DNA from: Prochilodus magdalenae
Taxonomy: Eukaryota; Chordata; Actinopteri; Characiformes; Prochilodontidae
Length of the DNA: 64,000 nucleotides
Reading direction: 5' to 3'
Assembly: GCA_024036415.1 (NCBI GenBank)
Contig: JAMWET010000580.1
Coordinates: 92,501-156,500 of the forward strand
Positions 8,347 through 53,369 of this stretch are shown in pieces (the stretch's first letter is position 1; every line of letters starts with the position of its first letter). The notes under the pieces are model-generated. The model was not told where the DNA came from. It ran no database searches and worked only from the letters and a program-made list of their open reading frames with translations. Position numbers and translations under genes: made by a program.

Positions 8347-8536
8347 ATGGGCAAGAAACATGCAACCATAGTGATACTGATGTGAAGGAGCGAATGAACA
8401 TTGAAAGTAGGAATAAACCTGGGACAAATGTGACCGAACAAAAGGGATCCTCGTGTAGCGCTTTATGGACACGTTTCAGAGAGTCAGCCTGTGTCGACTT
8501 TTGTGGCATGGCAAGATGAGTGCCTGCATACGATGA
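8347..8536 (+). promoter_or_regulatory. Three upstream ORFs in the arhgap35 leader
   Basis: After the acceptor at 8238-8239 the leader has three ATG-initiated short frames before the main start. They are 8347-8385 (12 codons), 8394-8519 (41 codons) and 8516-8536 (6 codons), whose TGA overlaps the ATGATG start. Such frames usually reduce initiation at the main ATG. Whether that happens here is inference. Confidence 0.55.
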
Positions 8537-26425: not shown

Positions 26426-26877
26426 TGTATATACCACAGTTTTTACTCTCAACAGTTTTGCCACACTACAGAGCGACACACGACCCACACCAGTAGAGGT
26501 CTCACTCTACACAAAAATCAAGCCTCAGAAACGAAGGCAGCACCACACAAGACATCACCCAGAACCCCAGTTTCAGCCTCCCTTGATTACCCCACTAAAT
26601 GTTATCTAATTGGGAGACAGGACTCTGGAGAGTGCGACCCCTGCTGTTCTGGAGGGTCATTACTGGCCATTGTTTATACCCGTATATGCAAGTGGTTGAA
26701 GCCTGGGAGGACCAACTCCATTAAGACACTGGAAATCCAGCTAATACTAGTAGCTCATGGAAAGACTATAGAAATATAGACATAGTGTTTAATAGTTTGG
26801 AGCTGTGCAGAAATAGTGAAATAAGACTGAATGAGTTGTATTTGTTTTCTAGGTATTAGATGAACGCTGGCTGAAAG

Positions 26878-26911
26878 ATGGCTCAAGGAGAAGTACCTAG
26901 GGAACGCATTG
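26878..26911 (+). CDS. Start exon of GIMAP copy 1
   Basis: ATG at 26878 encodes MAQGEVPRERI plus one base, followed by donor gtaaga at 26912. An acceptor (tttgttttctag) ends at 26852, so a 5' non-coding exon lies further upstream. Phase 1 matches the next exon. Confidence 0.7.
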
Positions 26912-29900
26912 GTAAGACGTATGGCTTAGTTGTAAGGTTATGGTTATGTTACAATATTTACTGTTAATTACCATTATTTCCACAAAAGACACAAAAATCG
27001 TTTATTAATACAGCCTCAGTGCTCCTAAAATACCCTGTACTGATGACTGTTAAATAAGCTCACTGGACAAAAAAATGAGTCCCCTGTGACTGAAATGACC
27101 CTATTAGCGTGTAACGCCTCCACAAGCACCAATAACAGCTCTGATTGCATTGGGCATGTACTGGACAGGTTTCTGGATGTAGGCCACATCAGTGTTCAGA
27201 CACTCTTACCTCAAAGGATTGTGCAGTTGGGCCAGATTTGGTGGATGCCTTTCCTGGCACAATTCCGAGGAGAATTCCCTGTGGACTGGGATTGTAGCCA
27301 CTGCTGGTAGACCCGTATGACTGTACGCTTCCATACACCTGCAGATTCAGCTACTTCCTTTACACTATGGTCTTTGACACGCCCAAATGCTCAGTCACTC
27401 CTTTTAGCCAGTCATTAACATCTGCTCTGGAGCCATTTTCCACACATCCCATCATTAAGTTAAGGTGCTACCACTTTAAACATCGAAGGTGACTCACTTT
27501 TTTTGTCCGGTGAGCTTACATAGTCATGGGATGGAGAGAAAACAGGTATAAGGTATGACTTTTTCCTCTTACAGGTGACTTACTCTGTCTCTCAGAGCTG
27601 AGGATTGTGCTGCTGGGGTACAGATATGCTGGGAAGAGTTCAGCAGGAAACACCATCCTGAACAGAGAGGAGTTTGAGTTAAAGGGAACTGCTCAGTGTG
27701 TGAAGAGACAGGGAGAAGTAGCAGGGAGACACATCACTGTGGTTGAAGCTCCAGGATGGTGGAGAGATGAACCTGTAGAGGAGAGCACTGAGTTACTGAA
27801 ACAGGAGATTGTGCTCAGTGTGTCTCTGTGTCCTCCAGGACCTCATGCTGTACTGCTGATCATACGTCTGGACAGGGTGTTTAACAGAAATTATAGAAGG
27901 ATATTAGAAGGATATCTGAATCTTCTCACTGATACAGTCTGGAGTCACACTATAGTGCTGTTCACCTGTGGAGACTGTCTGGAAGACACACCCATAGAGC
28001 AGCACATTGAGAGTGAAGGGAAGGAGCTCCAGTGGCTGGTGGAGAAATGTGGGAACAGGTATCATGTTCTCAACAATGAGAACAGGAGTGATGACACTCA
28101 GGTCACAGAGCTGCTGGAGAAGATAGAGGAGATGGTGGCAGCGAACGGTGGACACCATTTTGGACAACTGAGAATGGGAATGACAATTAGGGAGAAAGAA
28201 ACCAAAGAGAAGGAAGTCTTTGAAAGAAGAAGTAAGTCAAAATTTCTTTGCTTTGTGCTATGTACTGTCGGGTTCTCTTGTTCTTTGTAGATGTTCTGCT
28301 GACTTGGCAGCATTGCTAGCTTAATAAACAGAACAGTGCATGGAAATCACATAGAAGCAGCTTATGCTGCAAGAGCAAAATGAGCATCTATGAAGAAAGT
28401 TACTACAGATAGATAACTCGGGCAGTATACCACTGAGGTGCTACTAGAAAGGGAAAACCTGTTATCTCAAGTCATCTGATGCTCTGTTTGGTGCAGATCA
28501 CCATAGAAATTCGTTCCTACCAGCAACGAAGTGGTGGGTTCATTTGGATTTTGGTTTAGTGGCATTTGGTTAGTGCTCACCAGAGTACGAATTGAGATTC
28601 ACACCTATCAAATGACCCATTTGAGAAAAAAAGGTTTAATTTGTTCATACCAGAAATAGCGGGAATTAAAACACCCTTCAATATAACTAAAAACCTCAAC
28701 CCCATGTGCCTTGCGTTTGAAGGCACTTGTTACTGACACTTCAAGTGTGATAAAGGAAGCGACCAAAATGATCTTTGTTCACCATTATATCTTCTGGTGA
28801 ACTTCAAGAAGTTCAAGAAAAATTCCAGAAATCTAAAAAGAGAGAAATCCCGACTGCAGTTTTTAAAGTTTAATTCTCCTATACTGAAAATAAAATAACA
28901 GCAGGTGGCAAGCTCACGAAGAGTTGACAGCGTTTCAGGCTTAGGCTTCATCAGGTCATTGGCAGGTCCTGTTTTGGATTTCCTCCTGCTTTCTATAGGT
29001 CATCACTGTGAATTTTAGAAAACTCAATAAGCAAAGTCTAATGAAGCCTGCATCCAAGACGGCCTCTCGGGAAGATCCTGGACTAACTCCTGTCCTGCAT
29101 ATTTTGAAGTTTTCCTGACCTACCTACAAGTCATGAAGGCCTTGTTAAGACAGAGATAGTCCATGTGGGTTGACCACCTGAGTGTACTCTCAGTATTAGA
29201 TTAGATTAAAGCCGTTTTGCCAATTGTAGTTACACACAGAGGAGTTCTACCTCGATAGATTGGCCAATACTTATTTTTACACTATTGTGAATTAGAATTA
29301 TTTGAATTATTACAAAGTTACTCTGAGGATGATGATGATGATGACATAACAAATAATAATTCTGGCCTTTCAGTAAAATCAATAGGTTGAAACATGATCC
29401 TCTGAGCCCTCTTGACTGCTAATTGATTAAACCAGTGAGTGGACAGGAATTAAACTTCCTGTATATGCATGTCTGTGTGTTCCTCAATCATAGGTTCATC
29501 ATTACTGATGGAATACAGTGAAAGGACTGCAGCAGATGTGAGTACAACAGTCTTGCCATGAACAGTCTTTGACAGGGTGGCTTTGTGATGGGGTCAAGGC
29601 GGGGTTGTGGGATGGTTATTTAAAAAGTCCCCTAATATCACCAACTTTGGAGAATGACTTCTCTAATGTCAATATCAGACAGTCATTTGCTGGAATAAAG
29701 AGAGCCAAAAAAGGGGACTGGGGGCAGGGATTGGGTTTAGGGGGTGGTTGGAGAACTAGGGTAGCGGGTGGATTATTGGGGATCTGCTGCAATCCAATCT
29801 GGCCAACAGAACTTCAAGCAGGACTTAATATTGCCCAGCAGCTATTGGTTTCTCTGTTAATGTTTAATGTCAGGACAACATGAGCTCCGTGGACAAAAGA

Positions 29901-32900
29901 GTGAGTCCCCTCTCTGATGTTCTTGGGGTGTTTTTAATGGGTTCTTTGGTTGAGCTGACAGTGAATATGAACCACAGTGCCTACACTGAGCTGCTGGACA
30001 ACCGAGAAACATCACATTCCTATCACTGTATTCCAAGATGACAGTTCTGGGCTGTTTTTAGAGGGCTGTGATTGTGACTGATTGGCATGATGAACCTTCA
30101 GGAACACCTGTACTGGCCCACAAAATCCCCAGATTTGGATTCTCTTGAAAATCAGAAGGACTACCTGGAACAACCAGTAAAACGCCAGGGATCCACCAAA
30201 TCTGGTCCAAATGACCAGTTCTTGAGTGGCTGAACATTGATGTGGCCTGTTATAGACGTTCTGTTATAAGCAGTTCAGAATTTGCCATAGTGTCAACAGA
30301 ATTTGAAGACAATATTTCAGAAGAAGGGTCTTAAACTCAGGGCCCTAAGAAGTCCTGTAACTGCTGGCAAATGAAATTCAGGTAGTGGAATATGAAGGAG
30401 CCTGTAAGTTTGGATGTAGATGACTCATAGATGTTCCTGAAGGGGAGTGTGACAGCACCCCACTACCCTGTGGTGGCTCTCCTGATGCAGCCCAACTTTG
30501 ACCTGGGGCTTTTTATGGTTACAATGAGAGGAATTGAGATGACCCTTCCAGTCTACTTAATACTGAATGCACCCTTTCCACTCTGAATCAAGGAGATCCA
30601 ACACCGGAATTCTGGGAAGGTGCCCACACGGGAGTGCAAGGGACCGCCTATAACAAACTATAACAGGATAAAAAGGCGACCTAATCGTGAGTATTGCTGA
30701 CACATTTGATTTTGAACAAATGTAATTATTATTAATTATAGAAAGAGAACAAATGAGTAGTTAAATAGTTTAATATATCAATAAACACAAATTTAGGTAA
30801 CTCTTTATTGTGACGGTCCTCCTGTAGATATTCAGTAGACTATCAGAAGGCTATTTACAAGCACATCTGTTTTACTAGCAATAACAATATCTACAGAGTG
30901 TTAACTAACCGTCAACAAAAACATCAGCATTTCTTTGGTTTATATTGTGCAAACATTTTCTTTGGCTCTTGATTATGGTCTGCAAATATACAGTGGGGTG
31001 CGAAAGTTTGGGCAGCCTTGTTAATTTTCCTGATTTACCTTTATAAAGCATTGATTTTTTGGATAAAAAAGTTAAGTAAAATATATCATATAGGGGACAA
31101 ACACAGTGATATTTGAGAAGTGAAATGAAGTTTATATGAATTACAGAAAGTGTGCAATAATTGTCTAAACAAAAGTAGGCGGGTGCATAAATTTGGGCAC
31201 CCCCAAAAAAAACCTTAACTCAATATTTAGTAGATCCTCCTTTCGCAGAAATAACAGCCTCTAAACGCTTCCTATAGCTTCTAATGAGAGTCTGAATTGT
31301 GGCTGAAGGTATTTTAGACCATTCTTCTTTACAAAACATCTCTAGTTTGTACAGGTTTGATGGTTTCCGAGCATGGACAGCTCTCTTTAAGTGACACCAC
31401 AGATTTTTTAAATAATATTCAGGTCTAGGGACTGAGATGGCCATTCCAGAACGTTGTACTTGTTCCTCTGCATGAATGCATTAGTAGATTTTGAGCAGTG
31501 TTTAGGGTCGTTGTCTTGTTGGAAGATCCAGCCCCGGCGTGGCTTGAGCTTTGTAACTGATTCCTGGACATTGGTCTCCAGAATCTGCTGATATTGATTG
31601 GAATCCACGCGTCCCTCAACTTTAACAAGATGTGTTCTTTTTTCTCCATGCATAACGGCCCTTGTTATGCCCAAATAACTCTATTTTAGTTTCATCAGTC
31701 CACAGCACCTTATTCCAAAATGAAGCTGGCTTGTGCAAATGTGCTTTAGCATACCTCAAGCGGCTCTGTTTGTGATGTGGGTGGAGAAAAGGCTTCCTCT
31801 GCATCACTCTCCCATACAGCATCTCCTTGTGTAAAGTGCGCCGAATAGTTGAACGATGCACAGTGACTCCATCAGCAGCAAGATCATGCTGTAGGTCTTT
31901 GGTGCTGGTCTGTGGGTTGACTCTGACTGTTCTCAACATCCTTCGTGTCTGTTTATTCGAGATTTTTCTTGGTCTGCCACTTCGAGCCTTGACTTGAACT
32001 GTGCCTGTGGTCTTCCATTTTCTCACAATGTTTCTCACAGTGGAGGCTGAAAGCTGAAATCTCTGAGATAGCTTTCTGTATCCTTCCCCTAAACCATGAC
32101 GGTGAACAATCTTTGTTTTCAGGTCATTGGAAAGTTGTTTTGAGACTCCCATGCTGCGACTCTTCAGAGAAGATGCAAAGAGGAGAAAAACTTACAATTG
32201 CCCCCTTTAAATACCCTTTCTCATAATTGGAGTCACCTGTGTATGGAGGTCAAGGGTCACTGAACTTACCAAACCAACAGTGACAACAGTGCCCAAATTT
32301 ATGCACCTGCCTATTTTTGTTTAACCAATTATTGCACACTTTCTGTAAATCATATAAACTTCATTTCACTTCTCAAATATCACTGTGTTTGTCCCCTATA
32401 TGATATATTTAACAGATTTTTTTTTTATCCAAACAATCAATGCTTTATAAAGGTAAATCAGGAAAATTAACAAGGCTGCCCAAACTTTGGCACCCCACTG
32501 TATATTTATAGACATTCAACAGACCCTTAGTAAATTATAAACAGATCATATTATGGCCAATCTGTTTATCACTATCAGAGTATCATCAAGCAATCAGTAT
32601 TATACCTATAGATGTGTTACTGGCCATCAACAGACTATCAGTAGAGTGTGTGTAAATACTCTCCACCTGTCAATATTATCTCTATAGGTGTGTTACTGAC
32701 CATCAACAGACTATCAGTAGAGCATGTGTAGATACTCTCCACCTGTCAATATTATCTCTATAGATGTGTTACTGACCATCAACGGACTATCAGTAGAGTG
32801 TGTGTAGATACTCTCCACCTGTCAATATTATACCTATAGATGTGTTACTGACCATCAACAGACTATCAGTAGAGTGTGTGTAGATCCTCTCCATCTGTCA

Positions 32901-35900
32901 GTATTATACCTATAGATGTGTTGCTGACCATCAACAGACTATCAGTAGAGCATATGTAGATACTCTCCATCTGTCAATATTATACCTATAGATGTGTTAC
33001 TGACCATCAACAGACTATCAGTAGAGCGTATGTAGATACTCTCCATCTGTCAGTATTATACCTATAGATGTGTTGCTGACCATCAACAGACTATTAGTAG
33101 AGCGTATGTAGATACTCTCCACCTGTCAGTATTATATCTATAGATGTGTTACTGACCATCAACAGACCATCATTAGAATGTATGTAGAAACATTTGTAGA
33201 CCAATAATATCCAAACTCATTTAAAGATGCAGGACAACGTTGAAGCCATCATGATAATTTTGATAGCACCTCTTTAGTATTATAGCGATAAGCTAGTGCA
33301 AAGCTTATTGTAATTGAGGTGAAGTGACAAAATCGCCCTGGTCGTTAGTGCATGATGACGTTTTAGAATGTAAGGACCGCTGACACGTTTGATTTTAAAA
33401 TGTTCATGTTACAAATCCAGCTAAACTAGAAACAGTTCAGAACAAAATGTTGTCTCATTAATGTACAGCTATCTCAAACACAGGAGTAGGGAGCTCTTTC
33501 AGCACTGGAACTGGCCAGCCTGAACTACATGCCAGTCTCAGTTCTGGCTAAACATGAATGATTCCCGGTGTTGCACTTCTACATTGCAAAACGATTTGTC
33601 AGTTCCAAAAATAAGCACATTAAACACAATATGTGCTGATAATGAGCTCCGCGATTGTGACCAATTGGCATGATAAACCTTCAGGAACACCTGTACTGGC
33701 CCACAAAATCCCCAGATTTGGATTCTCTTGAAAATCAGAAGGACTACCTGGAACACCCAGTAAAACGCTAGGGATCCACCAAATCTGGACCAACTGACCA
33801 ATTCTTGAGTGGCTAAATATTGATGTGGCCTACATCCAGAAACCCCCCGTTGCAGCGCAGCCTAGACCTGGGGCTCTTTATGGTTACAATGAGAGGAACT
33901 GAGGTGACCCTTTCAGTCTACTTAATACTGAATGCACCCTTTACACTGTGAGTCAAGGGGATCCCAACCCGTAATTCTATGGAGGTGCCCAAATTGGCGC
34001 ATGAAGGACGAGCTATATCACGCCTGGAACAGATGACAAGCCAAAGTAAATGTGAGTATTGCTGACACATTTGACTTTAAACAAATGTAATTATTTTTGG
34101 GCTTAGGGAAAGAATTTTGAATCATTGAATAGTTTAATCGATAAACAATTTAAATATATATTGACACAAACCTCGTGCCACCTGGGTGCATGAGTTTGAG
34201 TTTTGATCTTATGTGCTGCAGAGTCCTTTGTGCAGTTTAATCCTTCCAATTTGCCAGTAGTTTCTTGTGTACAGGTTCTGGATCATGCCTTTTTCCACTG
34301 GGTTTAGGCTGCTGTGATGCTGAACACTTTAGTTCATTCAGCTTCTACATGTAGAGTGTATACATGTACTTGAACCCTACATTATATCAATATGGTTCCC
34401 TGGGCAGGACCCCTAACACTACCTTCACCTCCCTGTATAAGAAATGATCAAATTGAAAGTTGCTCTGAATGAGAGCGTCTGCCCAATACTGTAAACGTAT
34501 AGTGATAAGTGACTATTGTGATAGTATTCTCTTGTGTAGAGGTTCTGGATCATGACCTTTTTCATTAGTGTTAGACCTCGATACTGAAGAAGCCTTTGAA
34601 GAGGAGGACTCAGTCTGGTCTCCGCTGGATTATGATAGGTTACTATGTAAGTATTCCTGACACATTTCAGTTTAGTATTTTATAAAAGATCAAAAGTTTA
34701 CTCAAAAAGCTTTGAAGTGAGCTGCCTTTTAAGTTGATACGTATAGTATTTTTGTTCTATTTTTCAGGGCTACATTCTGTTATCTGTAGCAAATCAAGCC
34801 AGACTAAAACAGTACTTGAGCAAGAGACAAAATACTGTCCAGGTGTAGCAGCAATGTTACTACATTAAACTCAGTACTGACTAAACATGAATTATTCTCA
34901 GTGTTGCATTTATAAACTATAAAATTGTTTGTCGGTTCAAGCTCAGCATAAATAATATTAATAACTGTAGGCTAAAAACAAGATACAAAAGCAAATCAGA
35001 TACAAAGGTTATCTTATCGTAGTTACCTATAAAATCAAACACAGGCAAAGTGCCCCCCTAATATTATTTACTAAAGCATTATTTCTAGAACTAGTGTCTG
35101 GTCTGAGCTGGATGGATGTAAGTATTACACATTAAGGTTTCATATATTGTAAAAGAAAATAATAATAATAATACCACAAATAAAGTTTATTCAAAAAAGC
35201 CAAATTAGAAACTTTAGCTAGAGACAAAATGCTATCCAGGTGTAGCAGCAGCTGTGTTACTTAAGAATCTACAGGTACATCAAACTCTGAAGTAAGGAAC
35301 TCTTATAGGACAGGAACTGGCCAGGCTAAACTACAAGCCGTTCTCTATACTGTCTGATCATGTATTATTCTCAGTGTTGCATATATGCTCTGCACTGTGA
35401 AGTGTTTTGTTGGTCCAACCCAAAATGAAATGACTTTCATTTGTTACAAGCAAATGAACTAGGTTTATTCAACCTAAAAAAAAGGACTTTAAACACACGA
35501 TTCAAATTCCTTGTAACTATTTAGCGTATTTTTTATGTTGCACTTTTTACAGTCTGTAAAATGGTTTGCCTGCTCGAGTCCAAAATGAAAAAAATAAAAT
35601 GTTAATAATTATGTCAAAAAAAAATTAATGTGGCAACAGTTAGTTTAACTTGTTTAACTCAAACAAATGAACAAATGGAAACAATGCTAAAAATCTATTA
35701 ATTTGAATGGTTAGGAAAGAAACTGAACTAAACCCAAACTAAAGAAATGAAAAAAAAGCACAGCTGTAAGTTATAGATTTCATTAATTTTTATAAAATCT
35801 TAAAACTTTTTTTTTCATTAATGTTTTGTGGTCTGTTAGGCTGCAGCAGATTTCGGATTTTAGGAAAAGTACTATAAAAATAATCATATTACTGTGTATG

Positions 35901-38900
35901 TTGTAAAAAGTTCAACCTTAAAAAATGACTTTAGTTTGTTACAGGCTATCAAAAATTTAATTCACCTCAAATAATTACTTTGTTTGAAAGAATGGATCAT
36001 TCACAATTCTTTTTTTATAGGTTGAATAAACCTAATTCACCAATGAAACACTTTTTTACAGTGTAGGAATGGGCCAAATGGGAATTTAATGAATGTAGAC
36101 ACTGTGGTCCAAATTTACCCCAACTAAAACCAAAGCAAGATTCTACTAATCTGACCAAGCCTGCTTTGACTTACTTCCTTGAACCACCTCTATATGCATG
36201 TGTAGGTTTCTCATCCAGTGATGAATTAACACAGACGGACATACCGATGATGGGAGTGATAGCAGAGGTAAACCCAATTCACAATTCTGAGGAAAATGTC
36301 TTTGTAGACTGGGATTTTAGCCACTGCTGGTAGACTTATATGACCATACGCTTCCATACACCTGCAGATTCAGCTACGTCCTTCACACTATGGTCTTTGG
36401 TCACGCCCAAATGCAGTCACTCCTTTTAGCCAATCATTAACATCTGCTTTGGAGCCATTATCCACACATGGAATGAGACATTCCCTGCGCTGTAGCACCT
36501 CTTCCCAATCTATGGATCCCGTCACTCACACCCGGCAGGTATTTAAAGCCCCATCATCCTTGTGTAGGAGCCTAAAGGTACTACCACCTCAACTATGCAA
36601 TATGAGTTGTTTTTAGTTCTACCAGTCAAGAATTTTGTCATGGCTACTCATAGAAAATGGAACCTCCAAAATGGAACTATACAGGAGAATAAAACGGCTT
36701 TCTTAACCTGCAGTGGAGGCTGATACAACTAAGCAGTTTTGGACCAATTCTATTGATTTGTCCTTCATAAATATTCACTTGTATATAAGTTGAAAGGGGA
36801 ACTAGAGCTTTCAAACTGTGCTAAAAGAGATAAAAGGTTTTACACTGCCAAATACATATTAGATGGAGATTAGGTGGATTAGGCGAAGATATGGAGAAAT
36901 ATAATACTGTGGTACATCAGAAGTATGGTATATCATGTGCTCTTTCAGACTCTTATTTGTTGTAGCTGTTAAGTGTAAGACTGTAGAGTCTTTAAAATCA
37001 CCGACAACATCCATTTAGTTGGTTAATAGAGAATACAGGCAAAAATAAAAAAAATAGCACATATTGTTGGTGAATCTCAAGAGTTGGGTCACTGTATAGC
37101 TAGCTATGTTAGCCAGCATGCTAACCAGCCAATAAAACTAGGCATGAATTCCAGCAGTTAGGTTTCTATACAAATTCGTTCATCAATAATACTATGGGCT
37201 TTCAAAGCTTGCTAGCTTTCCTGGACCTGGTACACGCCCAGGCCTCAGACACACCCTCAACAGACAAACTAGGGGCAACGTTAGTGGACTATTATCAGCT
37301 AGTGGGAACACAGGATAGGAATTTCAAAGACATACATCATACAGAAAATGCCACTGTTATATGCATTATACCTCTAAAAATAAATATTTTTAATGTATTT
37401 TTGGCATTTAAAGCATTACATATCAAGGTATGATATTTGTGGTTTGTTCACCTAGTTAAAATTTCTGTATGCAGGACATACCCACCCAGTGTTGGTCCCC
37501 CCCACCTGTAGAAAGGATTGTGCCCCAGGGTCAACAGCCCTCAACTGAAGTATTTGTCCCTGAAGGCATGCATTCAGAAATCAGGAACAGTGATTTCTAC
37601 AGGTACTCTATCGTGCAAACAGACCTTTAAGGTTCACACATGTGTTTGGTTTTTATGGTTCTTCTGCTCTGCAGGTTTCTGTGCCCTCATGCTGGTCAGT
37701 TTCAGTGCAGACTGACCAATCTGATGTTTGAGATGGAGGGTAAAGGGGAGGTGCTGTACCGAATAGACCACTGGGACACCCGACTGTTGGATGGTTTAGG
37801 TCAGATGCAGCCTGCAGGTCCGCTGTACAATATTGACTGCTTTGAAGGTTCAATCAGTCGTCTGCACCTCCCGCACTGTGAGGTTCAGTATGGTATGTAT
37901 GTGTTTGATGTATAAACCTTGTATACAATAGAAACATGTGGTAAAGGACTAACAGTATACCCACTATTGGATCTATAGTACTTTGTGAAATTAGACGCCA
38001 CGCTGGTTGATTAGAACCAGTGAATTAACTGGGGTGTCAAATGAAAGCAGTGGTTAATAATGTTCCTCTGGATGTACACTCATTATAAGTTTCACCCAGA
38101 GGAAATCCACTGACAGGAATGAAACTTGGTGGGTAGGTTTGACATTGTGAGACATGCTAATGATTCCTGTTTCACACCAGCTCCACCGCACAGTCTTCAG
38201 GAATTGTGTGAGGATATTCAAGCTGCATGGGATGGATTATCACAGGACACCATTAGGAACCTCTACAGCTTCATGGCGAGAGGTCTGGCATGTTGGGTTA
38301 GCAAACATGGCGGCCCGACACTTTTTCAATGGAAAAGTAGACTGACTTTCTTTCATTTAACTGGGGTGGCCAGCGGAGTGGGTGGCTGGGTCTTCCTGGG
38401 AGGGTGGTACAGGTCACCCATTGGTTCTGCCCTGTATTTCTGAGGAAACTTTATAATTAAGTAAAATAATGTGTCCACAGTAATAAGCATGGGGACAGTG
38501 CAAATACACTCCATTAAGTGCACTGTAGCGAACACTGCTACTAGTTAGGAACAGCTTAGACACACCTACAGAAATCACTGTACCATCCACAAACGCAGGT
38601 TAAAGCTGCATCATGTAAAGAAGAAGCCATAAATCAACAGGCTTCAGAAACGCTGCCGTCTTCTCTGGGCCAAAGCTCATTTAAAGTGGACTGAGGGAAT
38701 GTGGAAAAAAATGGTCTGTGGATGAATAATTAAAAATCTGAATTTTTTTTGGGAAACCACATACGCCGTTTCCTGCGTCAAGAAGAGAGGGACCATCCAA
38801 CTTATCAGCAGTTTAAAAGTCTGCATCTCGGGTTTTTTGGGTTTGGATTAGTGTCTATGGCGTGAGTAGATTATACATCTGAAAAATCCGGCAAAGAAGA

Positions 38901-41900
38901 CCCAGGACTATTGAGTAGCTAGAATCCTACATCAGACATGAATGGAACAACATTCCCTTCCCAAAACTCCAGCAACTAGTTTTCTCACCTCCTAGACGTT
39001 TACAGACTGTTGTTAAAAGAGAGGAGGGTACGCAAAGGTAGACATGACCCTGTTCCAACCTCTCAAAACGTTTCACCATCAACATCTAATATGTGTTCCA
39101 TGTTCTGATGTTAATAAAATATGGGTGTGTAAGGTTTGCAAATCATAGCATTTTGTTTTATTGTCATTTATTTACATTTTACACAGCATCCCAACTGTTG
39201 AATTGGGGTAGTAATTGTTTATAAATGTAATTGGTAGTAAAAGTTAGAATAGTATTACAGATAGTTAATGTTATAGAAACTGATTTGCTTAAAATATTTA
39301 TTTCCTGTTATATAACATGCTTGTTTTATGATAACTTGTGCTTACCTGCAGTTTAGACAGTCCATTAAATAAATGATGAGTGGTCTCTGACTTTTGCTCA
39401 GCACTATATCTCGTATAAATCCAAAATAAAAGCTTATTCGAAGAATATTTATATATAAGGTTTCTCATTTGAGGCGAGACATTAACATTTAAAACTAGAA
39501 AAGTGCATTTACTGAAGGAAACGCAGGATGGTTGCGCAGCTTGCTCAGTGAGGAACGAGGGATGAGTAAATGAATGGAGGTCTGTATGACTGTGGCTTAG
39601 CGACTGGGGGCCTGCCCTTAGTTTGATGGGTCTCGAGCAAAAAAAGCATTACTGTTTGGTTTGGGTCGAAAATGACTAGGACTCTATGGGAGGAACGAGG
39701 GCTGGATAAGCGACAGATAGACGAGTGCGGGTCAGTATGGCTGTGGGTTATGGCTTGGGGACCTGCCCTTAGTGTGTATGTGAGGTTTCGCGCCTCTCGG
39801 GCGAACGACACAGCCGGCTTTAGGTGGGTCCAAAAATGACTATGGGAGGAATGGGAGGAATGAGGGACCCAATCCATTGTATCTGATTTGAAGTCTCTAG
39901 GTCGAGCGGAAGTAGAGTACGTGTGCAAACACCGTCCTATTCATTCTCTATGGGAAGAAAAACGGATGCGAAAAGAAAGAGAATTGAACGAGTGCGGGTC
40001 AATCCAACACTGAATTCCTGCTCGGGGCTGCCCCCGAGCCAGTGTATCCGATTTGGTGCCTCTAGGTCGAGGAGAAGTGGGTTAGATTGGCACGCGTTTT
40101 TTGACCCCATTCATTCCCTATGGGAAAAAATTCCAGAAAAATTCCTTCCTACTCGGAATCCGTGCATCCGACCCAAAAGCTGTATACAAGCCCACATCAG
40201 CAGATCATACCGGACAATTGCTTTGCAATGCGCAGCCATAATTAAGTTAATCAAATTAATTATGTTCCGACATTTTGTCCAGTGGTTGTGACCACATGGT
40301 TCTGATTATTGTTGATTTGTTGCAGGGGAGAACCAGGAGGAGCTGGCTGTGGCACATTTAACTGGTGATAATATAGAGGTCATATGGCCACTGAAAGTGA
40401 CAGACACCCATGTGGTTATTAGCATCCAGGGCCTCTCTTTCTTTGGTCTTCTAAAGAAGATGATGACCTTTTCCATTCCGATCAACGGCCAGGTGTTACT
40501 CTTCTATAAGGAATTAACTGGCAAACGAATCAGGAAAAAACTACACGTCCATTTACTTCCGGGGAACGTACCTGTTGAAGAGGTAACCTGCATCCATATT
40601 ATACATACATATTATGTTCATAGTAATGTTAATACCAAATTTGTATTTCTGCAAGTTAATCAGTTTCTGATGGGCTTGATTCCGGCTAAATGATGATTTG
40701 ACATTGTGACTTCTTATTGAGAGCCTCCTTGTTGAATGCCACACTTCAGTTCTCTAGATCCTTAACCTGTGTATCGCACTAACCCACTGTAGATGTAAAT
40801 AGTCTCAAATTAAAAGCTGAAACTTTACATTTTAAGCTTATTACGAGAACCTTAATGATGATCCTCCTGCTGTCTGGTAGAGAGCACTGGAGCATCTGTT
40901 TCACCACCACCAGTTTCTTTCAGTTTTGTAGTTACTTTCTGTTTGATAACCCAGCATGGCAGATATCTCGGCATGGAGTTGCAGAGGTTCCTAATGGTGT
41001 CGTGTGTAGGAGTGTAGGTGGAATGACACCAGGCCTTGTGGATGTGCGATGTATGCCAACAAATCGTTCATCTTGGTGCTGATCACGATGCCTCCACACA
41101 TGGATTCATTGCCCTCCATGAGTCATCCTGTTCGTGCCAGCACCATTAGCAGAAACCTGGACCATGCAGGATTACATGCTCACAGACCGTTACCACAACG
41201 GTCCTTAACACCATGTCAACATAACCAAAGACTTCAATGGGTATGTGCCAGACTGTCATGGAGGATCTCCACCAAGACAAAAAAAAAGGACTCGACGAAT
41301 CCGGCATGGTCCAGGTGTCTGCCAATGGTGCTGGCACGAACAGGATAACTCATGGAGGGCATCACTGCTTGACGAATGTCCATAATCATGGCTGTTGGGT
41401 CCGTTAGGTACAGCGATATGGCCCACGTGATACTTGAGATGTTAGCAAGTCTTACGATTTCAATCCTACCCACCTAGTTTCAATACTTTCTGGATGATTA
41501 CTTTAGCCGTATTGTCCCTTCAGGTGCAGAACCAGCATATGGACTTCAGGAAGATAAAAACCAGCTCTAAATGCCAACTGATCCCTGGTAAAAAATATAA
41601 ACCATCCTGTGACCCTTATGTATTTCAGCCAAAGGTAAATAATGACTGGAGAAACAGAACTATGAAGAAGACTGACTATGTTATCACTGGAAGTGAAGGT
41701 TTGAAGGTTGTCTTACCTCCTGGTAGGTTGAAGTGTTTGACTGCGACTACGGTCCCAACTATCACCCCACCTTTGAGGTGTTTCTTGACCCAGAGGCTCA
41801 GGAAGTCACAATTGGTCTTTTAAAAGAAAATGGTCAGGACGTTTGGGACCCTCGGTTGGTCTTTCTTGCAGGTAACCAGTACAGGTTTCTTCCAGCAAAT

Positions 41901-42783
41901 GGACTGTATAATACCATCTGATTAATATATTGTCACTGTCCAGCAAAAACCATGTATTGATTTTTTGTTTTTGATCAATTTTTACTTGTATGCATCATTT
42001 GATCACTCACAAGACCTGCCATTTACCCAAAAATGCTTTGTAAAGGTCTGGTTCCATTGACTTACATTAAAGTCCAATTAGATTTTTGCCCTATCCTGTG
42101 AAGTTGCCAGTTTGGAGATTCTTGTTTTTCTTTGGACAGCAACAGTATACAACACATTCATACAATGCAAGACCTTGCTATTTGAAGCAAATTAGTACAA
42201 TACTATTATAATAATATTTAAACTGTTATTAAGCTATCAGAATCTGCTTCTTAAAGCTACTAATTCAATAGTTCTGCGAACATGGGTTCTTTTAGGTCCT
42301 GCCAGATATACATTGTGTGGCCAAAAGTATATAGATACCTCTTGTAATTGTCCCAATCAGGTGTACCCATCACTAACAGGTGTATAAAATCAAGCACATC
42401 CCAATGGAGTCTCCCTACATGTCTGCCATGCTATATCTGGCTTACAGTCAACTGTAAGTTGTAAATTATAGTAAAATGGAAGAATCTAGGCACAACAGAA
42501 GTCTAGATGTGCCACCCGCCATCTCCCCTCTAAAATTCTAAACCACATAGTTCTTTAATAAACCCCTTATGGCCAGTTTAATACTAACAAATATCTTAGT
42601 ACACATGTATTAGATTACAATAACAACAGACAGCACAAGGTCTATGATTTATATATGTCTATATGTCTTCCTTCAAGAAAGTTTATTGTTTATTGACCCC
42701 CAATAGTATATATGACCATACATGCCAAATCCATACTCCCAAATGTAACTTTCCATCTTCAGAACTTCTTAAAAGGCTATATA

Positions 42784-42842
<59 letters not shown>

Positions 42843-43380
42843 ATATATATATATACATATATACTTTATAATGGCTTGCCAGTAATAATTGTTGTTGCTA
42901 TTGTTTACCTCTTTAGATGATGATACAGAGGCAGCTACATATAAAATGGATTCAGCAGGTAAGACCTCTCGCTCACAGTAGCCTCTACTGCTGACTTTAT
43001 AATAAGTTGATTCTAGTCTAGATTCGAGTGTTTTTGTGTAAGTAAGAGTAAATAAACATTGTCACAATTTTGCTGCCTCTGTTTGAAATGCATGTATACG
43101 ATGTATAGGTGCCAAGTTTGTGGATGAAAACAGGGACAAACTCATTAAGAAAGTTTCCTCAGTTATGGAAATTGCAGACTGTCTACAAAGCAAAAACATG
43201 TTAACTGACGAAATGTACTGCAACATTCAAAGTGGAAAGACATCTCAGGAGCAAATGAGGATATTGTACAGAGCCCTAGACTCAGGAGGAACAGCTGTAA
43301 AAGAAGAATTCCATCAAATCCTTAAACGGAAGCTTCCTTTCTTAGTGGATGAACTGGAGGCTGGACCCAGCAAAGCTTAA
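26878..43380 (+). CDS. Predicted GIMAP-FIIND-CARD protein, whole spliced span
   Basis: Exons 26878-26911, 27575-28231, 34575-34646, 36206-36267, 37475-37602, 37675-37892, 40326-40582, 41524-41871, 42917-42958 and 43109-43380 chain with compatible phases (1,1,1,0,2,1,0,*,1). They give about 696 residues if one missing base in the 41524 exon is allowed for. Order: AIG1/GIMAP GTPase (about 20-215), acidic and Pro-rich linker (about 230-317), ZU5 half (318-390) and UPA half (391-592) of a FIIND, short acidic linker, CARD (607-696). FIIND-CARD is the effector half of NLRP1 and CARD8, where it self-cleaves and recruits caspases. GIMAPs are immune GTPases. Joining them into one transcript is my inference from strand, spacing and phase. 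The alternative is two genes: a GIMAP and a FIIND-CARD gene whose own start I have not found. Confidence 0.6.
27055..27518. mobile_element. MITE with about 25-bp inverted ends in the GIMAP intron
   Basis: taagctcactggacaaaaaa at 27055 is mirrored by ttttttgtccggtgagctta ending 27518, with few mismatches. The right interior (about 27285-27440) reappears at about 36300-36480. Similar ends and interior words occur at about 29883-30250 and 33650-33840. The interior recalls decayed Tc1/mariner coding sequence. Confidence 0.75.
27575..28231 (+). CDS. GIMAP (AIG1) GTPase exon, copy 1
   Basis: Acceptor cag ending 27574, donor gtaagt at 28232, phase 1 in and out. It encodes ELRIVLLGYRYAGKSSAGN with an intact P-loop (GxxxxGKS, residues about 26-33), then the GIMAP motif TVVEAPGWW in the G3 position and LFTCGDCLEDT in the G4 position. 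A charged helix rich in Glu/Lys ends the exon. GIMAPs regulate lymphocyte survival and bind GTP on membranes (family knowledge). G3 reads EAPG where most GIMAPs have DTPG, a variant shared by all three copies here. Reading through the donor gives a stop after a further 20 codons (28290), so a short isoform is possible. Confidence 0.9.
29492..29535 (+). CDS. Possible optional short exon after the GIMAP exon
   Basis: tcaatcatag ends at 29491 and donor gtgagt starts at about 29536. In phase 1 it reads SSLLMEYSERTAAD without a stop. It ends in phase 0, which does not fit the later linker exons, so it may belong to an alternative transcript or be chance. Confidence 0.3.
29883..30250. mobile_element. 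DNA-transposon remnant related to the 27055 MITE
   Basis: The left end gctccgtggacaaaagagtgagtcccc resembles the MITE end. The interior has ccagatttggattctcttgaaaatc, which recalls the SPDLNPIEN segment of Tc1 transposases, and ccaccaaatctgg. A near copy lies at 33650-33840. Confidence 0.6.
30480..30760 (+). repeat. Linker-cassette repeat, copy 1
   Basis: About 280 bases closely related to 33860-34130. Both contain gtctacttaatactgaatgcaccc and end in a donor-like gtgagtattgctgacaca. No open exon is visible in front of the donor here. It may be a dead copy of the linker-exon region. Confidence 0.6.
30991..32500 (-). mobile_element. Tc1/mariner element with long terminal inverted repeats, internally deleted
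   Basis: Ends cagtggggtgcgaaagtttg (30991) and caaactttggcaccccactg (to 32500) are flanked by TA on both sides, the usual Tc1 target duplication. The inverted repeats run for about 210 bases each. Host-type copies are about 1.5-1.6 kb; this one is 1510 bp. It is the best-preserved element in the window. Confidence 0.92.
31209..32152 (-). pseudogene. Tc1-like transposase, frameshifted and internally deleted
   Basis: The start MGVSKQLSNDLK is at 32152 on the minus strand. It has paired helix-turn-helix regions with a GRPRK basic motif, then WTDETKIELFG with the first catalytic Asp near 31690. The frame breaks near 31650, and a block expected between the first and second catalytic residues is missing. 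FQQDNDPKH (second Asp) follows near 31510 in a second frame. The C-terminal part, with SAKGG near its end, continues in a third frame to about 31209. It cannot encode an active enzyme. Confidence 0.9.
32590..33200. repeat. 76-bp tandem repeat, eight copies
   Basis: Units start with (c/t)ctatag at 32605, 32681, 32757, 32833, 32909, 32985, 33061 and 33137: exactly 76 bases apart each time, with scattered substitutions and no indels. Each unit contains tgttactgaccatcaacaga. The last copy decays after about 33200. It lies in the long linker intron of the GIMAP-FIIND-CARD model. Confidence 0.95.
33650..34130 (+). repeat. Linker-cassette repeat and transposon remnant, copy 2
   Basis: Matches 30055-30250 and then 30480-30760, with the stretch between them absent. 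Ends with gtgagtattgctgacacatttgac at about 34052. This shows a segmental duplication of about 0.5 kb on either side of the Tc1 element and the 76-bp array. Confidence 0.65.
34575..34646 (+). CDS. Acidic linker exon
   Basis: Acceptor gtgttag ends 34574, donor gtaagt at 34647, 72 bases, phase 1 in and out. It encodes LDTEEAFEEEDSVWSPLDYD followed by RLL. The acidic composition, open frame, strong splice sites and fitting phase support it as a linker between the GIMAP and FIIND parts. A shortened relative with the same gtctggtct-gctgga core precedes a donor at 35113 but has a stop in one frame and a phase clash in the other. Confidence 0.55.
35391..36063. mobile_element. MITE-like element with cactgt ends
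   Basis: Left end cactgtgaagtgttttgttgg and right end (reverse complement) cactgtaaaaaagtgtttcattgg are inverted. Both are followed inward by aggtttattcaacct. Related end words occur at about 33580 and 34915. Confidence 0.6.
36206..36267 (+). CDS. Linker exon before the FIIND
   Basis: Acceptor gtgtag ends 36205, donor gtaaac at 36268, phase 1 in and 0 out. It encodes FSSSDELTQTDIPMMGVIAE. The incoming phase fits the acidic linker exon and the outgoing phase fits the exon at 37475. Confidence 0.55.
36300..36480. repeat. Partial copy of the 27055-27518 MITE
   Basis: It shares tagccactgctggtagac, cgcttccatacacctgcaga and ttagccaatcattaacatctgct with 27290-27425. The flanking inverted end is not seen. 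Confidence 0.75.
37475..37602 (+). CDS. FIIND first exon (Pro-rich start)
   Basis: Acceptor tatgcag ends 37474, donor gtactc at 37603, phase 0 in and 2 out. It encodes DIPTQCWSPPPVERIVPQGQ and onward to NSDFYR, leading into the ZU5 half. The final split Arg codon continues with FLCPHAGQFQC in the next exon, the usual start of the first FIIND strand. Confidence 0.7.
37675..37892 (+). CDS. FIIND ZU5-half exon
   Basis: Acceptor ctgcag ends 37674, donor gtatgt at 37893, phase 2 in and 1 out. It encodes PHAGQFQCRLTNLMFEM, then AGPLYNIDCFEG and RLHLPHCEVQYG. The pattern of FxCxxTxLxF, then AGPLxxI, then LPH is the ZU5-like half of NLRP1/CARD8 FIIND domains. Confidence 0.88.
38140..38345 (+). mobile_element. 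Tc1-like transposase tail fragment
   Basis: ELCEDIQAAWDGLSQDTIRN and a following SKHGGPTLF-like end are typical of the C-terminus of Tc1-family transposases. A close copy is at 51505-51645, and a reversed piece is at about 40960-41010. Confidence 0.7.
38540..39220 (+). mobile_element. Decayed DNA transposon, 3' half
   Basis: It contains gaaaaatccggcaaagaagacccaggactattgagtagct and a following region resembling the 3' end of a widespread fish DNA transposon, with ttttacacagcatccca-ctgttgaattggggt at the right end. Frames are broken. I do not assign a superfamily firmly. Confidence 0.55.
39425..40270. repeat. Unidentified repetitive block between FIIND exons
   Basis: Internal near-repeats are seen: gtctgtatgactgtgg-tta...ggcctgcccttagt at about 39580-39620 and gtcagtatggctgtgg-tta...gacctgcccttagt at about 39730-39770, plus ctctaggtcgag at 39894 and 40060. 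It is an intronic insertion of unknown family. Confidence 0.5.
40326..40582 (+). CDS. FIIND UPA-half exon 1 with the autoproteolysis site
   Basis: Acceptor ttgcag ends 40325, donor gtaacc at 40583, phase 1 in and 0 out. It encodes ENQEELAVAHLTGDNIEV and on to SIQGLSFFGLLKKM, then VLLFYKEL and HVHLLPG. His at 40355-40357 and Ser at 40436-40438 are 27 residues apart, the same spacing as His1186 and Ser1213 of human NLRP1. Self-cleavage is therefore plausible, but the residue before Ser is Leu (Phe in NLRP1) and the one after is Phe (Pro in NLRP1). Confidence 0.88.
40940..41470. repeat. Fold-back repeat of the 51360-51640 family
   Basis: Arms 41110-41167 and about 41304-41361 are reverse complements around ctccatgag-, cgtgccagcaccatt and ctggaccatgc. 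The outer part contains the reverse complement of accattaggaacctctac, as found at 38250 and 51575. It lies in the intron between the two UPA exons. Confidence 0.75.
41524..41871 (+). CDS. FIIND UPA-half exon 2, with a one-base frameshift
   Basis: Acceptor ccttcag ends 41523, donor gtaacc at 41872. The first frame gives VQNQHMDFRKIKTSSKCQ and on to GLKVVLPPG. At about 41724-41727 the frame changes, and the continuation VEVFDCDYGPNYHPTFEV to PRLVFLAG is typical of the UPA end. The length (348) is one base short for the phase of the next exon, so a single base seems to be missing. Sequencing error, polymorphism and pseudogenisation are all possible. Confidence 0.82.
42300..42400. repeat. Fish DNA-transposon end fragment
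   Basis: cattgtgtggccaaaagtatatagatacctc resembles a common Tc1-type end in fish genomes. No coding part is seen. Confidence 0.5.
42782..42862. repeat. TA/TG microsatellite
   Basis: (TA)n then (TG)n then (TA)n in the intron before the small exon at 42917. Confidence 0.95.
42917..42958 (+). CDS. Short acidic linker exon between UPA and CARD
   Basis: Acceptor ctttag ends 42916, donor gtaaga at 42959, 42 bases, phase 1 in and out. It encodes DDDTEAATYKMDSA. Confidence 0.75.
43109..43380 (+). CDS. CARD exon (C-terminal)
   Basis: Acceptor tatag ends 43108; stop TAA at 43378-43380. It encodes a CARD of about 85 residues: FVDENRDKLIKKVSSV, then LTDEMYCNIQSG and QMRILYRALDSGG, then LPFLVDELE. The order and hydrophobic pattern match the C-terminal CARD of NLRP1/CARD8-type proteins, which binds ASC or caspase-1 family CARDs (family knowledge). 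A possible polyadenylation signal ATTAAA follows at 43444-43449 and an AATAAA at 44057-44062. Confidence 0.9.
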
Positions 43381-43879
43381 CGGACCTAAGAAAACGAGTT
43401 TATTCAGTCTCTCTAAAATGTTTATTGATCATAAACCTTTAGAATTAAACTGTTCTCATATTTCTGAGCATAAATTGTAGTGATCATTGACTTCTGTTCA
43501 TGTTGTACTCAGTGACCGGGGCTAGTGTCCCCTCCTAAAAACAATAATAATTCAACCAAAAAGGCTCCAAAATTTCACCTAAAAAGTTGTTCAACTCCAG
43601 CTGAAAAGGTCTGCTCATCATCTTACCTCACTTTTCATGAGGTAACCATAGAGTAACCATAGAGTAAACACAGTGAGAAACATCTCGGAGATAAACATTA
43701 ATTCATTACATTAATCAACATTATACATAATCAACATTAATCACTGGTATGTGTAGAAGCCTGGACCTTGTTATCAGCATGGTTTGCTTAAAACCCTGAG
43801 AAACAGACCCCCAGCACACTCACCCTCAGTGAGTGGTTACCTTTAATGTAGGTATACAATCAGAGTGCTATCTAACCCA

Positions 43880-49886: not shown

Positions 49887-50401
49887 AAAAGTTGGTCAGA
49901 TCAGATGTACAAGTAAGTTGGGTTTTGGTTTTGCGTGCATGTGTAAAATCCTGGGAATTTAGAACTTAGAATTTTATCTGGCATGCTTAGGAATTTCTCT
50001 CAAGAGGAGGAATTTTTGGAATGTTCACTATAAGACAAGACACTGTCTGTGTAAGGCGAAAGAGAAGAGCTTTACATTAAACTACATGCATGGTTCCTAA
50101 TTCCACACAGCAGTGTATAGTTTCTGAAATTCTGTGGATAGACTGTTACTGTTTAAGTGTATATTTTGGTTTAGCCAAAAACACATTCACTTCTTCACTC
50201 ATACATCAGGTCATGGCAGGTTGAGAATGACTGTTCATAATATGCTTTAACTTTTTTAGGCACCATTATTTTGGCCAGCCCTCCTGTATATACTCTTCTA
50301 GTATAGAGAATTAGGGTCAGTCTTTCTGTGGTCCTTGACTTCTTCAAGGCATGAGGCTGAGATGGCCAAAGCTGATGTTTTCTGGGGCTATGATGTAATA
50401 G
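49887..50401 (+). repeat. Duplicate of the GIMAP exon tail, intron and start exon
   Basis: Closely matches 52600-53115. It starts with the last bases of a GIMAP exon (cagatcagat-tacaagtaagttggg) and ends with the start exon used by copy 2. The GIMAP GTPase exon that should precede it is missing and replaced by the Ty3/gypsy fragment, so a former GIMAP copy has been lost here. Confidence 0.85.
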
Positions 50402-52612
50402 GTAAGATCAGTTGTCTCCAACTGAAAAAAGAGGGGAGAAAAAGGAGAGAAAGGAAAAGGAGAAGGCAAAAAGAAAAAAAAGTTGAAAAAGAAAAGCCTG
50501 AAAAAGGGAGGAAAATAAAAGGCTCAAAAGGTACATAATGCATTTCAACCCCTTGTTCCACATTCTACTATGCAGCCTCAGTGGCAGTAATAGCATGTTG
50601 GTCTGTGGTCACCCATGTGACCAGTTTAAATCTGGCTGGTTGGCCATGTCAGCCATCACAAGCACCACACACACTTATTCAGGTTTTAACACTGAGTTAA
50701 GTATATAAAACAAATAAAAACCTTTTGCTCTTTTGGGTCCACTGCCTCACTAAACCATAGTAGTTCAGGTTTACATTGTAAGTAGATTTTTTACACTAAG
50801 AAAGTAGGGCTTTACTGTATATATAACCTGCTGTATGTGGCTTGTAGGAGAGAAATGGAGAGGATGGCTGCCAATGACCTGAGTCTTTCTGTGGGAAATG
50901 GAAGAAGAAAATAATAAATCTTGTAATAAAACAGTGCAAAAATGGGTAAGTGGATTTTTACGATTATTAAAAACAAAAATTGAAATGAATCTCAAACATA
51001 TGAAATAGACTATGGATTGTCTGCAGAGCAGTATGGCTATACTTTTTCATTTTTGTCTTTCATGATAATAATATAGATACATAATACAGGCAAATTTATT
51101 TGGACACCTGACTATCACACTTACATGAGCTTGTTTGGCATTGACTTATCACACCAGACAACATGTTTTTACTGCTTCAGGTTCTGATGGCTTTACATAG
51201 TCTGACTCATTTCCAAGCGCATGCTTACATATAGAAATTATGTCCTTCAAGAGTGTCCACATACACACGTCATCGTTTGACAATGGGAAAGAAGTTTGGT
51301 CGCACATATGACGTAATCAAGGACCGACCTTATTGCTGTACCTGACTGACCCAACAGCCACAATTGCAGACATCCAGTGAGCAGTGATGTCCTCCATGAG
51401 TCATCCTGTTAATGCAGCAACATTGGCAGACGTCGCAGCCATACAGGATGAACGGTTGTTGTCACATGCCACACGTCCAGAAAGCCTAGTGTCACTCCAC
51501 CTCCACCCCTACCGCACCCTTTTCAGGAACTGTGTGTGGATATTCAAGCTGCATGGGATGAATTATCCTAGGACACCATTAGGAACCTCTACAGCTCCAT
51601 ACCGAGACGTCTGGCATGTTGGGTTAGCAAACACGGCGGCCCGATGCCATACTGAGAGACAGACTTCTGTATGTGTAGCTCAATAAATATTGATCATATC
51701 AGTCTAAATTTATCATCAGTTATTGATCCTGGTCACCTTTATCTTCCTTCCCAATACCACCGCACACCCACACCTCCTTCTGGGTGCAGCTGTTCTTTTG
51801 ATGATGAGGGTATATTTGCCATAGTGTATGAGCATTATTTTACCATTTATTGTATTCTATAAAGTATTTGTACTGTGAACAGGTAGCATTTGTGATTACT
51901 TTTATAATTATATATTGTTTTTAATGGCTCTGGCTTTTTCCCCTAGCAGGTGATAAAGACCATCATATCAGCCTGAGGATTGTGCTGCTGGGGAGCGTAT
52001 ATGCTGGGAAGAGTTCAGCAGGAAACACCATCCTGAACAGAGAGGAGTTTGAGTTAAAGAGAACTGCTCAGTGTGTGAAGAGACAGGGAGAAGTAGCAGG
52101 GAGACACATCACTGTGGTTGAAGCTCCAGGATGGTGGATTAATAGGCCTGTAGAGGAGAGCACTGAGTTACTGAAACAGGAGATTGTGCTCAGTGTGTCT
52201 CTGTGTCCTCCAGGACCTCACTGTCTGCTGTTGGTCATACGTCTGGACAGACAATTTCAAGAGAACAGCAGAAGAATATTAGAGCAACACTTGAAACATC
52301 TCACTGATACAGTCTGGAGTCACAGTATACTGCTGTTCACTCGTGGAGACTATCTGGGAGACACACCGATAGAGCAGCACATTGAGAGTGAAGGGAAGGA
52401 GCTCCAGTGGCTGGTGGAGAAATGTGGGAACAGGTATCATGTTCTCAACAATAAGAACAGGAGTGATGACACTCAGGTCACAGAGCTGCTGGAGAAGATA
52501 GAGGAGATGGTGGAAGCAAACAGTGGACGCCATTTTGAAATGGACAGAAAGATTCTACAGGTTGAGCAAGAGAGGATGATGACAGTGCAGAAACAGCAGA
52601 TCAGATCTACAA
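50362..52612 (+). CDS. GIMAP GTPase copy 2 (two exons)
   Basis: Exon 50362-50401 (MAKADVFWGYDVI plus one base, donor gtaaga) joins exon 51950-52612 (acceptor ctagcag, donor gtaagt at 52613) in phase 1. The protein has an intact P-loop GSVYAGKSSAGN, EAPGWW in the G3 position and LFTRGDYLGDT in the G4 position, and a Gln/Glu-rich helical tail. It is very similar to copies 1 and 3 at base level, which points to recent duplication or gene conversion. The end is in phase 1, so further exons must follow. One option is the copy 3 GTPase exon at 58969, giving a two-GTPase GIMAP8-like protein. Reading through the donor stops at 52671. Confidence 0.8.
51085..51300. repeat. Dispersed repeat shared with 58490-58850
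   Basis: Both contain tatttgga-ac-tgactatcacactt and further similar words, and both lie upstream of a GIMAP GTPase exon. Likely a DNA transposon remnant that was duplicated with the gene unit or inserted twice. Confidence 0.55.
51360..51650 (+). mobile_element. Tc1-like transposon remnant
   Basis: It contains ctccatgagtcatcctgtt, also seen at 41115 and in part at 61960, and the transposase tail region found at 38200-38330 (attcaagctgcatggga, aggacaccattaggaacctc). Frames are broken. Confidence 0.7.
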
Positions 52613-53067
52613 GTAAGTTGGGTTTTTTGGTTTTGCGTGCATGTGTAAAATCATGGGAATTTAGAACTTAGAATTTTATCTGTCATGCTTAGGAATGTCT
52701 CTCAAGAGGAGGAATTTTTGGAATGTTCCTTTGTGGCAAGACACTGTCTGTGTATTGCGAAAGAGAAGAGCTTTACATTAAACTGCATGCATTTCATGGT
52801 TCCTAATTCCACACAGCAGTGTATAGTTTCTGAAATTCTATGGATAGACTGTTACTGTTTAAGTGTATATTTTGATTTAGCCAAAAACACATTCACTTCT
52901 TCACTCATACATCAGGTCATGGCAGGTTGAGAGTGACTGTTCATAATATGCTTTAACTTTTTTAGGCACCATTATTTTGGCCAGCCCTCCTGTATTTACT
53001 TTTCTAGAGTAGAGAATTAGGGTCTGTCTTTGTGTGGTTTTTGACTTCTTCAAGGCATGAGGCTGAG

Positions 53068-53115
53068 ATGGCTCAAGCTGCCCATGTGATGTTTTCTGGG
53101 GCTATGATGTAATAG
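53068..53115 (+). pseudogene. Broken copy of the GIMAP start exon
   Basis: It matches 50362-50401, but 8 extra bases (gcccatgt) after the fourth codon shift the frame and bring a stop before the donor gtaaga at 53116. It lies between GIMAP copies 2 and 3, where a start exon for copy 3 would be expected. Confidence 0.8.
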
Positions 53116-53369
53116 GTAAGATCTCCAGTTACAAGGCAGTGGAAGTGTGCCTTGAGAGTGTGTCAGCTTCAATAAGCTTCCTACCTTTAACATACTCTGT
53201 GCTAAATCTCATCAGTTGCAAAAGTAGCCATTCTAAACCAAAGACCTTATTCTGGCCAGCTTGGATATTAACACCATTTGACCCGTACAGGTATTTTGTC
53301 AACTTTTACCATGCCCAGATCACAGCCAAGTACATTTCAATTTGTGAATATCTAGTTTCTGTACATCAT

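Follow-up and report, generated by a model that had tools for sequence, protein, structure and literature searches.

A candidate GIMAP-FIIND-CARD gene in Prochilodus magdalenae and its possible role as a GTP-switched inflammasome sensor

Can a GIMAP GTPase and a FIIND-CARD tail be parts of one fish protein? This question is raised by a stretch of 64,000 nucleotides (nt) from Prochilodus magdalenae (assembly GCA_024036415.1, contig JAMWET010000580.1, positions 92,501 to 156,500 of the forward strand), hereafter called the window, in whose own numbering all coordinates are given. Pfam matches to AIG1 (PF04548; 27559-28287, E 2e-39, 135.6 bits with the cut-off at 27), FIIND (PF13553; 37631-37912, E 1e-29, and 40316-40690, E 2.8e-10), UPA-FIIND (PF23679; in pieces at 40316-40690, 41446-41820 and 41727-41918) and CARD (PF00619; 43087-43377, E 2e-13) follow one another in this order along the + strand and are far beyond chance. 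A first-pass annotation, made from the letters of the DNA, had arranged such parts along a single strand, from a start exon and a GIMAP exon through linker exons to the two FIIND halves and a CARD, and the Pfam matches confirm this order of domains. From the splice phases and one linker exon of modest support, we slightly favour the reading that GIMAP and FIIND-CARD are encoded as one protein. More tentatively, and with a little less than even confidence, we propose that this protein is a fish FIIND-CARD sensor in which a GIMAP domain takes the place held by NACHT-LRR in NLRP1 or by the GBP domain in Gbp4, and thus a GTP-switched, self-cleaving inflammasome protein that arose by shuffling of phase 1-1 exons. 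Pfam covered 27 of the 160 open reading frames listed for the window and one shorter piece, and other genes present there may have escaped notice.

The exon chain (Table 1) adds up to 34+657+72+62+128+218+257+111+145+42+272 = 1998 nt, encoding 665 residues plus a stop, with an intact frame and consistent phases. In the encoded model, Pfam at E 0.001 placed AIG1 at residues 20-210, FIIND at 313-437, UPA at 443-556 and CARD at 578-659 and gave no domain besides these. The ZU5 and UPA halves of the FIIND are both nearly full (positions 4-128 of 131 in PF13553 and 1-116 of 117 in PF23679). The first-pass annotation had read the middle of the UPA part as a single 348(+1) exon with a one-base frameshift. 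At this point the Pfam UPA match breaks off at profile position 76 and restarts at position 78 in another frame, at a GT...AG pair. When the 92 nt between them were spliced out, UPA gave a single match of 114.5 bits, whereas retaining them and shifting the frame yielded a match in two stretches with 106.1 bits. The frameshift was therefore abandoned in favour of an intron, which explains the match better and splits the exon in two. The compatible phase chain that had been proposed thus stands, whereas its length of 2091 bases or 697 codons does not.

Within the FIIND, His401 and Ser428 align with H1186 and S1213 of NLRP1, which we take to be the residues of autoproteolysis; the FIIND thereby appears to keep the His and Ser required for autoproteolysis, and cleavage itself may be expected by analogy. 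The best match of the CARD in the PDB was the zebrafish GBP-like CARD 4irl (E 1.5e-21, 47 of 91 residues identical), with weaker matches to ASC (best 5gpq, 3.6e-9) and to isolated NLRP1 CARD chains (best 3.5e-6). The FIIND-CARD tail matched the CARD8 structure 7jkq with E 2.5e-13, and the nearest PDB entry for the GIMAP domain was GIMAP2 (2xtm, E 1.9e-24). Because the autoproteolysis residues are kept and the CARD is nearest to the zebrafish GBP-like CARD, the earlier suggestion of an inflammasome-type sensor is a reasonable one; the joining into one protein, on which it also depended, draws on splice phase and a linker exon.

Four known systems invite comparison. With NLRP1 the model shares a ZU5-UPA FIIND with aligned His and Ser and a C-terminal CARD, but neither NACHT nor LRR was found by Pfam (E 0.001) in the 665 residues, and membership in NLRP1 was rejected on this ground. 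CARD8, which to our knowledge has no GTPase domain, is similar in its FIIND-CARD tail; in the present locus, GIMAP lies upstream, and whether it belongs to the same protein hinges on the predicted junction 28231-34575. The likeness to the GIMAP family consists in the AIG1 GTPase domain with its P-loop, which reads GYRYAGKS in this exon, and G3 reads EAPG; the assignment of the GTP-binding motifs G1-G5 is our assumption. The order of an N-terminal GTPase, a FIIND and a C-terminal CARD is that of zebrafish Gbp1, Gbp3 and Gbp4, and the nearest PDB CARD is the zebrafish GBP-like 4irl. In contrast to these proteins, the model contains AIG1 and has no GBP match in Pfam, and it was therefore not assigned to the GBP-FIIND-CARD proteins.

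GTPase-FIIND-CARD proteins as such are known: passages of PMC6721725 attribute an NLRP1-like FIIND-CARD to zebrafish Gbp1, 3 and 4, and passages of PMC4932187 describe Gbp4 of zebrafish, in which a GTPase is combined with FIIND and CARD, as dependent on its own GTPase activity and on Asc. GIMAP as the GTPase is probably a new architecture. Among open-licence full texts up to 2021, GIMAP occurred together with FIIND in PMC8195603 alone, whose available passages name them apart and without such a fusion; what they report is the fusion of TRADD-N domains to GTPases of the AIG and GBP kinds and, for other proteins or elsewhere in the text, to FIIND. From 2022 onward, open-licence full texts yielded nothing for the pair, and absence there is not absence from print. 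Term searches gave no occurrence of FIIND, CARD or inflammasome in the accessible parts of a 2021 GIMAP review (PMC8201404), and none of GIMAP in those of two reviews, on teleost inflammasomes (PMC9978379) and on fish NLRs (PMC12436146), and of a paper on zebrafish NLRs (PMC4852459). In trout, the available part of PMC8467531 lists induced GIMAP4/7-like genes and an induced 'CARD8-like' gene as separate genes.

The decisive part of the model is the joint between GIMAP and FIIND. At least one phase-changing linker is required, since the GIMAP exon exits in phase 1, whereas the entry phase is 0 for the exon beginning at 37475 and 2 for the one beginning at 37675. Splice sites were scored with a vertebrate splice matrix and ranked among the 4346 AG and 3874 GT sites of the window. 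By combined splice and codon score, linker exon 1 (34575-34646) ranked above all other open AG..GT candidates of 28300-37470 (2561 in total) and remained first with a codon model trained on the p190RhoGAP exon alone; it enters in the very phase in which the GIMAP exon exits. Addition of linker exon 3 (37475-37602) raised the FIIND match by 6.3 bits and moved its start from profile position 10 to 4, compared to a gain of 0.8 bits in a control with arbitrary letters. In codon usage, linker exon 1 exceeded the 95% control, and linker exon 3, UPA part 2 (41524-41634) and the CARD exon did not; this measure discriminates poorly, given that the latter two bear recognizable domains. The identical frame is also preserved if linker exon 1 and linker exon 2 (36206-36267) are replaced by the candidates 34575-34638 and 36219-36267, which rank 3 and 8. 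For the linker exons, no further copy turned up in the window when + strand open reading frames of at least 25 residues were compared with it at E 0.01. Taken by itself, linker exon 1 is modest evidence for the joining.

Several observations weigh against one joined product. The score of linker exon 1 was reached in 6 of 40 dinucleotide shuffles (in 2 of 40 with entry in phase 1), and linker exon 2 was indistinguishable from chance, in agreement with the earlier view that the linkers are the weakest part. The candidate joining intron, at the junction 28231-34575, is 6343 nt long and contains repeats, a minisatellite and the fragment of a transposase. The donor side of linker exon 1 (34645-34667) is similar to repeat DNA at 34050-34072 in 21 of 23 bases. 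The residue preceding Ser428 is Leu, where NLRP1 has Phe, and the G4 motif of the GIMAP exon reads TCGD, while its two neighbours in the window have TRGD.

As to the contents of this region, the transposase fragment is of Tc1/Sleeping-Beauty type and occupies 31625-32191 on the - strand, and the minisatellite (32594-33188) comprises 7.8 copies of 76-bp units. Short similar stretches are also present on the acceptor side of linker exon 1, at 34257-34298 and 34524-34565. The similar stretches flanking this exon are perhaps traces of duplication or repeat-derived splice sites.

Among the alternatives, the one that fares best assumes two adjacent genes, a GIMAP gene (26.9-28.3 kilobases, kb) that ends in another exon or through polyadenylation within an intron, and, under a separate promoter, a CARD8-like FIIND-CARD gene (about 34-43.4 kb); we regard it as a substantial possibility, albeit a doubtful one. 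Reading past the GIMAP donor leads to a stop at 28290, followed 33 bases on by AATAAA at 28323, and a terminal-exon candidate at 29874-29917 (phase-1 entry, score 6.9) could close a GIMAP-only product. A separate start for the FIIND-CARD part is available in an ATG exon at 33979-34051, which splices in phase 1 to 34575 and, with a score of 6.5 (best of 406 in 28240-37500), surpasses the accepted start exon (4.0, best of 57), and an in-frame Met lies inside linker exon 3. However, this start candidate sits in a repeat (33851-34098) that is 80% identical to 30486-30733, which weakens the two-gene explanation without removing it. By tblastn, no FIIND-CARD was found near the second and third GIMAP exons within the window, the third being only 4.3 kb from the window end, and the trout gene in the accessible part of PMC8467531 bears the name 'caspase recruitment domain-containing protein 8-like'; both fit separate genes. 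Against them speak the good donor of the GIMAP exon, its phase 1-1 as in the two paralogs, and the agreement between its exit phase and the entry phase of linker exon 1.

It is improbable, in our estimation, that the GIMAP exon is optional, with the start exon spliced either to GIMAP or directly to the linker and with GIMAP able to end alone, giving fused, GIMAP-only and FIIND-CARD-only products; the phase 1 common to the start exon exit, the GIMAP exon and the linker exon and the AATAAA at 28323 would allow it, but the idea is purely combinatorial. Hardly credible is a decaying FIIND-CARD remnant next to a working GIMAP gene, with the chain as an artefact of splice-site choice: the one-base shift of the first-pass chain is abolished by the intron 41635-41726, and the weak acceptor of the CARD exon and the codon-usage scores of that exon and of UPA part 2, which are no higher than control, contrast with FIIND, UPA and CARD sequences that are open and almost full length.

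Further arguments for one joined gene come from the GIMAP cluster. Three GIMAP exons were found in the window (27575-28231, 51950-52612 and 58969-59670; 657, 663 and 702 nt), and because all three are phase 1-1 with a terminal donor, the GTPase exon of this cluster looks like an internal exon. They are 89-91% identical in DNA over some 600 bases. The likeness of the first to the others begins only 19-24 bases upstream of the exon and stops at 28162, and the second and third additionally have about 110 upstream bases in common. Pairwise ratios of non-synonymous to synonymous substitution over 195 codons were 0.66 (first and second), 0.49 (first and third) and 0.45 (second and third), which suggests that the GIMAP protein is under constraint. 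In the third exon, Arg replaces the Lys of the P-loop (AGRSS). No exons to which the second and third GIMAP exons could be joined on their 3' side were identified in the window.

In the comparison of + strand open reading frames of at least 25 residues with the window (E 0.01), no exon 3' of the GIMAP exons was shared except for a duplicate at 49.9-50.4 and 52.6-53.1 kb. Here, 49897-50409 and 52597-53123 are 92% identical, a duplication in which the last part of the second GIMAP exon is repeated together with the intron after it; no GIMAP exon was found ahead of 49897-50409, and reverse-transcriptase-like pieces lie immediately 5' of it. The interval from the second to the third GIMAP exon holds pieces of a retroelement (55391-55753 and 56037-56336, + strand), with reverse transcriptase and a weak likeness to RNase H. 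No second FIIND or CARD was detected in the window by tblastn with pieces of the GIMAP-FIIND-CARD locus itself. Relatives of the ZU5 part were confirmed for none of 4 viral and 38 prokaryote pattern matches, a result that says little about fish. Upstream of the GIMAP cluster, a p190RhoGAP gene of ARHGAP35/ARHGAP5 type is present on the + strand (large exon 8434-12321, RhoGAP piece 15670-16086). In humans, ARHGAP35 and CARD8 are located on the same chromosome arm, and the p190RhoGAP neighbour may be a lead to the origin of the FIIND-CARD.

At the 5' end of the proposed gene, in-frame stops lie upstream of the start exon, and an acceptor-like TTTGTTTTCTAG ends at 26852; therefore, an exon of the 5' untranslated region may precede the start exon.

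Table 1. Exons of the proposed GIMAP-FIIND-CARD gene and the intron within UPA, with the rank of splice sites or of whole exons among the candidates scored.
Feature	Position	Strand	Details
Start exon	26878-26911	+	MAQGEVPRERIG, 34 nt, exits in phase 1; score 4.0, highest among the 57 ATG..GT candidates of 26500-27500
GIMAP GTPase (AIG1) exon	27575-28231	+	657 nt, phase 1-1; splice sites among the best 0.5% (acceptor, 4346 AG) and 1.8% (donor, 3874 GT)
Linker exon 1 (candidate)	34575-34646	+	72 nt, phase 1-1, acidic (LDTEEAFEEEDSVWSPLDYDRLLC); rank 1 of 2561 candidates
Linker exon 2 (candidate)	36206-36267	+	weakest part of the chain, 62 nt, phase 1-0; 13th or 12th among 2561 candidates
Linker exon 3 (candidate)	37475-37602	+	128 nt; end codes for first FIIND-matched residues; acceptor top 13.6%, donor top 10.1% (weak)
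FIIND, ZU5 part 1	37675-37892	+	PF13553
FIIND, ZU5 part 2 (putative catalytic His401, Ser428) and UPA start	40326-40582	+	PF13553/PF23679
UPA part 2	41524-41634	+	PF23679; acceptor top 2.5%, donor top 1.8%
Intron inside UPA	41635-41726	+	92 nt, GT...AG; supported by UPA bit scores, spliced versus retained
UPA part 3	41727-41871	+	PF23679; best of 1441 candidates in 40800-43400
Short exon before CARD	42917-42958	+	42 nt, phase 1-1; donor in top 0.1% of 3874 GT; ranks second among the 1441 candidates of 40800-43400
CARD exon with stop codon	43109-43380	+	PF00619; acceptor weak, top 32.9%; ATTAAA at 43444

If the locus is one multi-exon gene, its product would be a protein of 665 residues composed of a GIMAP GTPase, an acidic linker, a FIIND (ZU5-UPA) and a CARD, and its working mode would most likely be that of NLRP1, CARD8 and the fish GBP-FIIND-CARD proteins. 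By analogy to these, the FIIND would cut itself before Ser428, and the GIMAP-ZU5 part would stay non-covalently bound to the UPA-CARD part of 238 residues. A trigger acting on the GIMAP part, either GTP-driven assembly at a membrane or degradation of the N-terminal part, might then free UPA-CARD, and the freed CARD could recruit Asc and then a caspase. The splice from GIMAP to FIIND, the cleavage, the trigger, the release of UPA-CARD and the recruitment of Asc are all predicted steps.

If one transcript indeed joins GIMAP and FIIND-CARD, the FIIND-CARD tail would occur on at least three kinds of nucleoside triphosphatase sensors, namely NACHT-LRR, GBP and GIMAP, which would suggest that FIIND-CARD is a portable output module. 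The GIMAP family would then be linked directly to inflammasome signalling, and the question posed for this family would be whether its GTPase switch controls the release of UPA-CARD.

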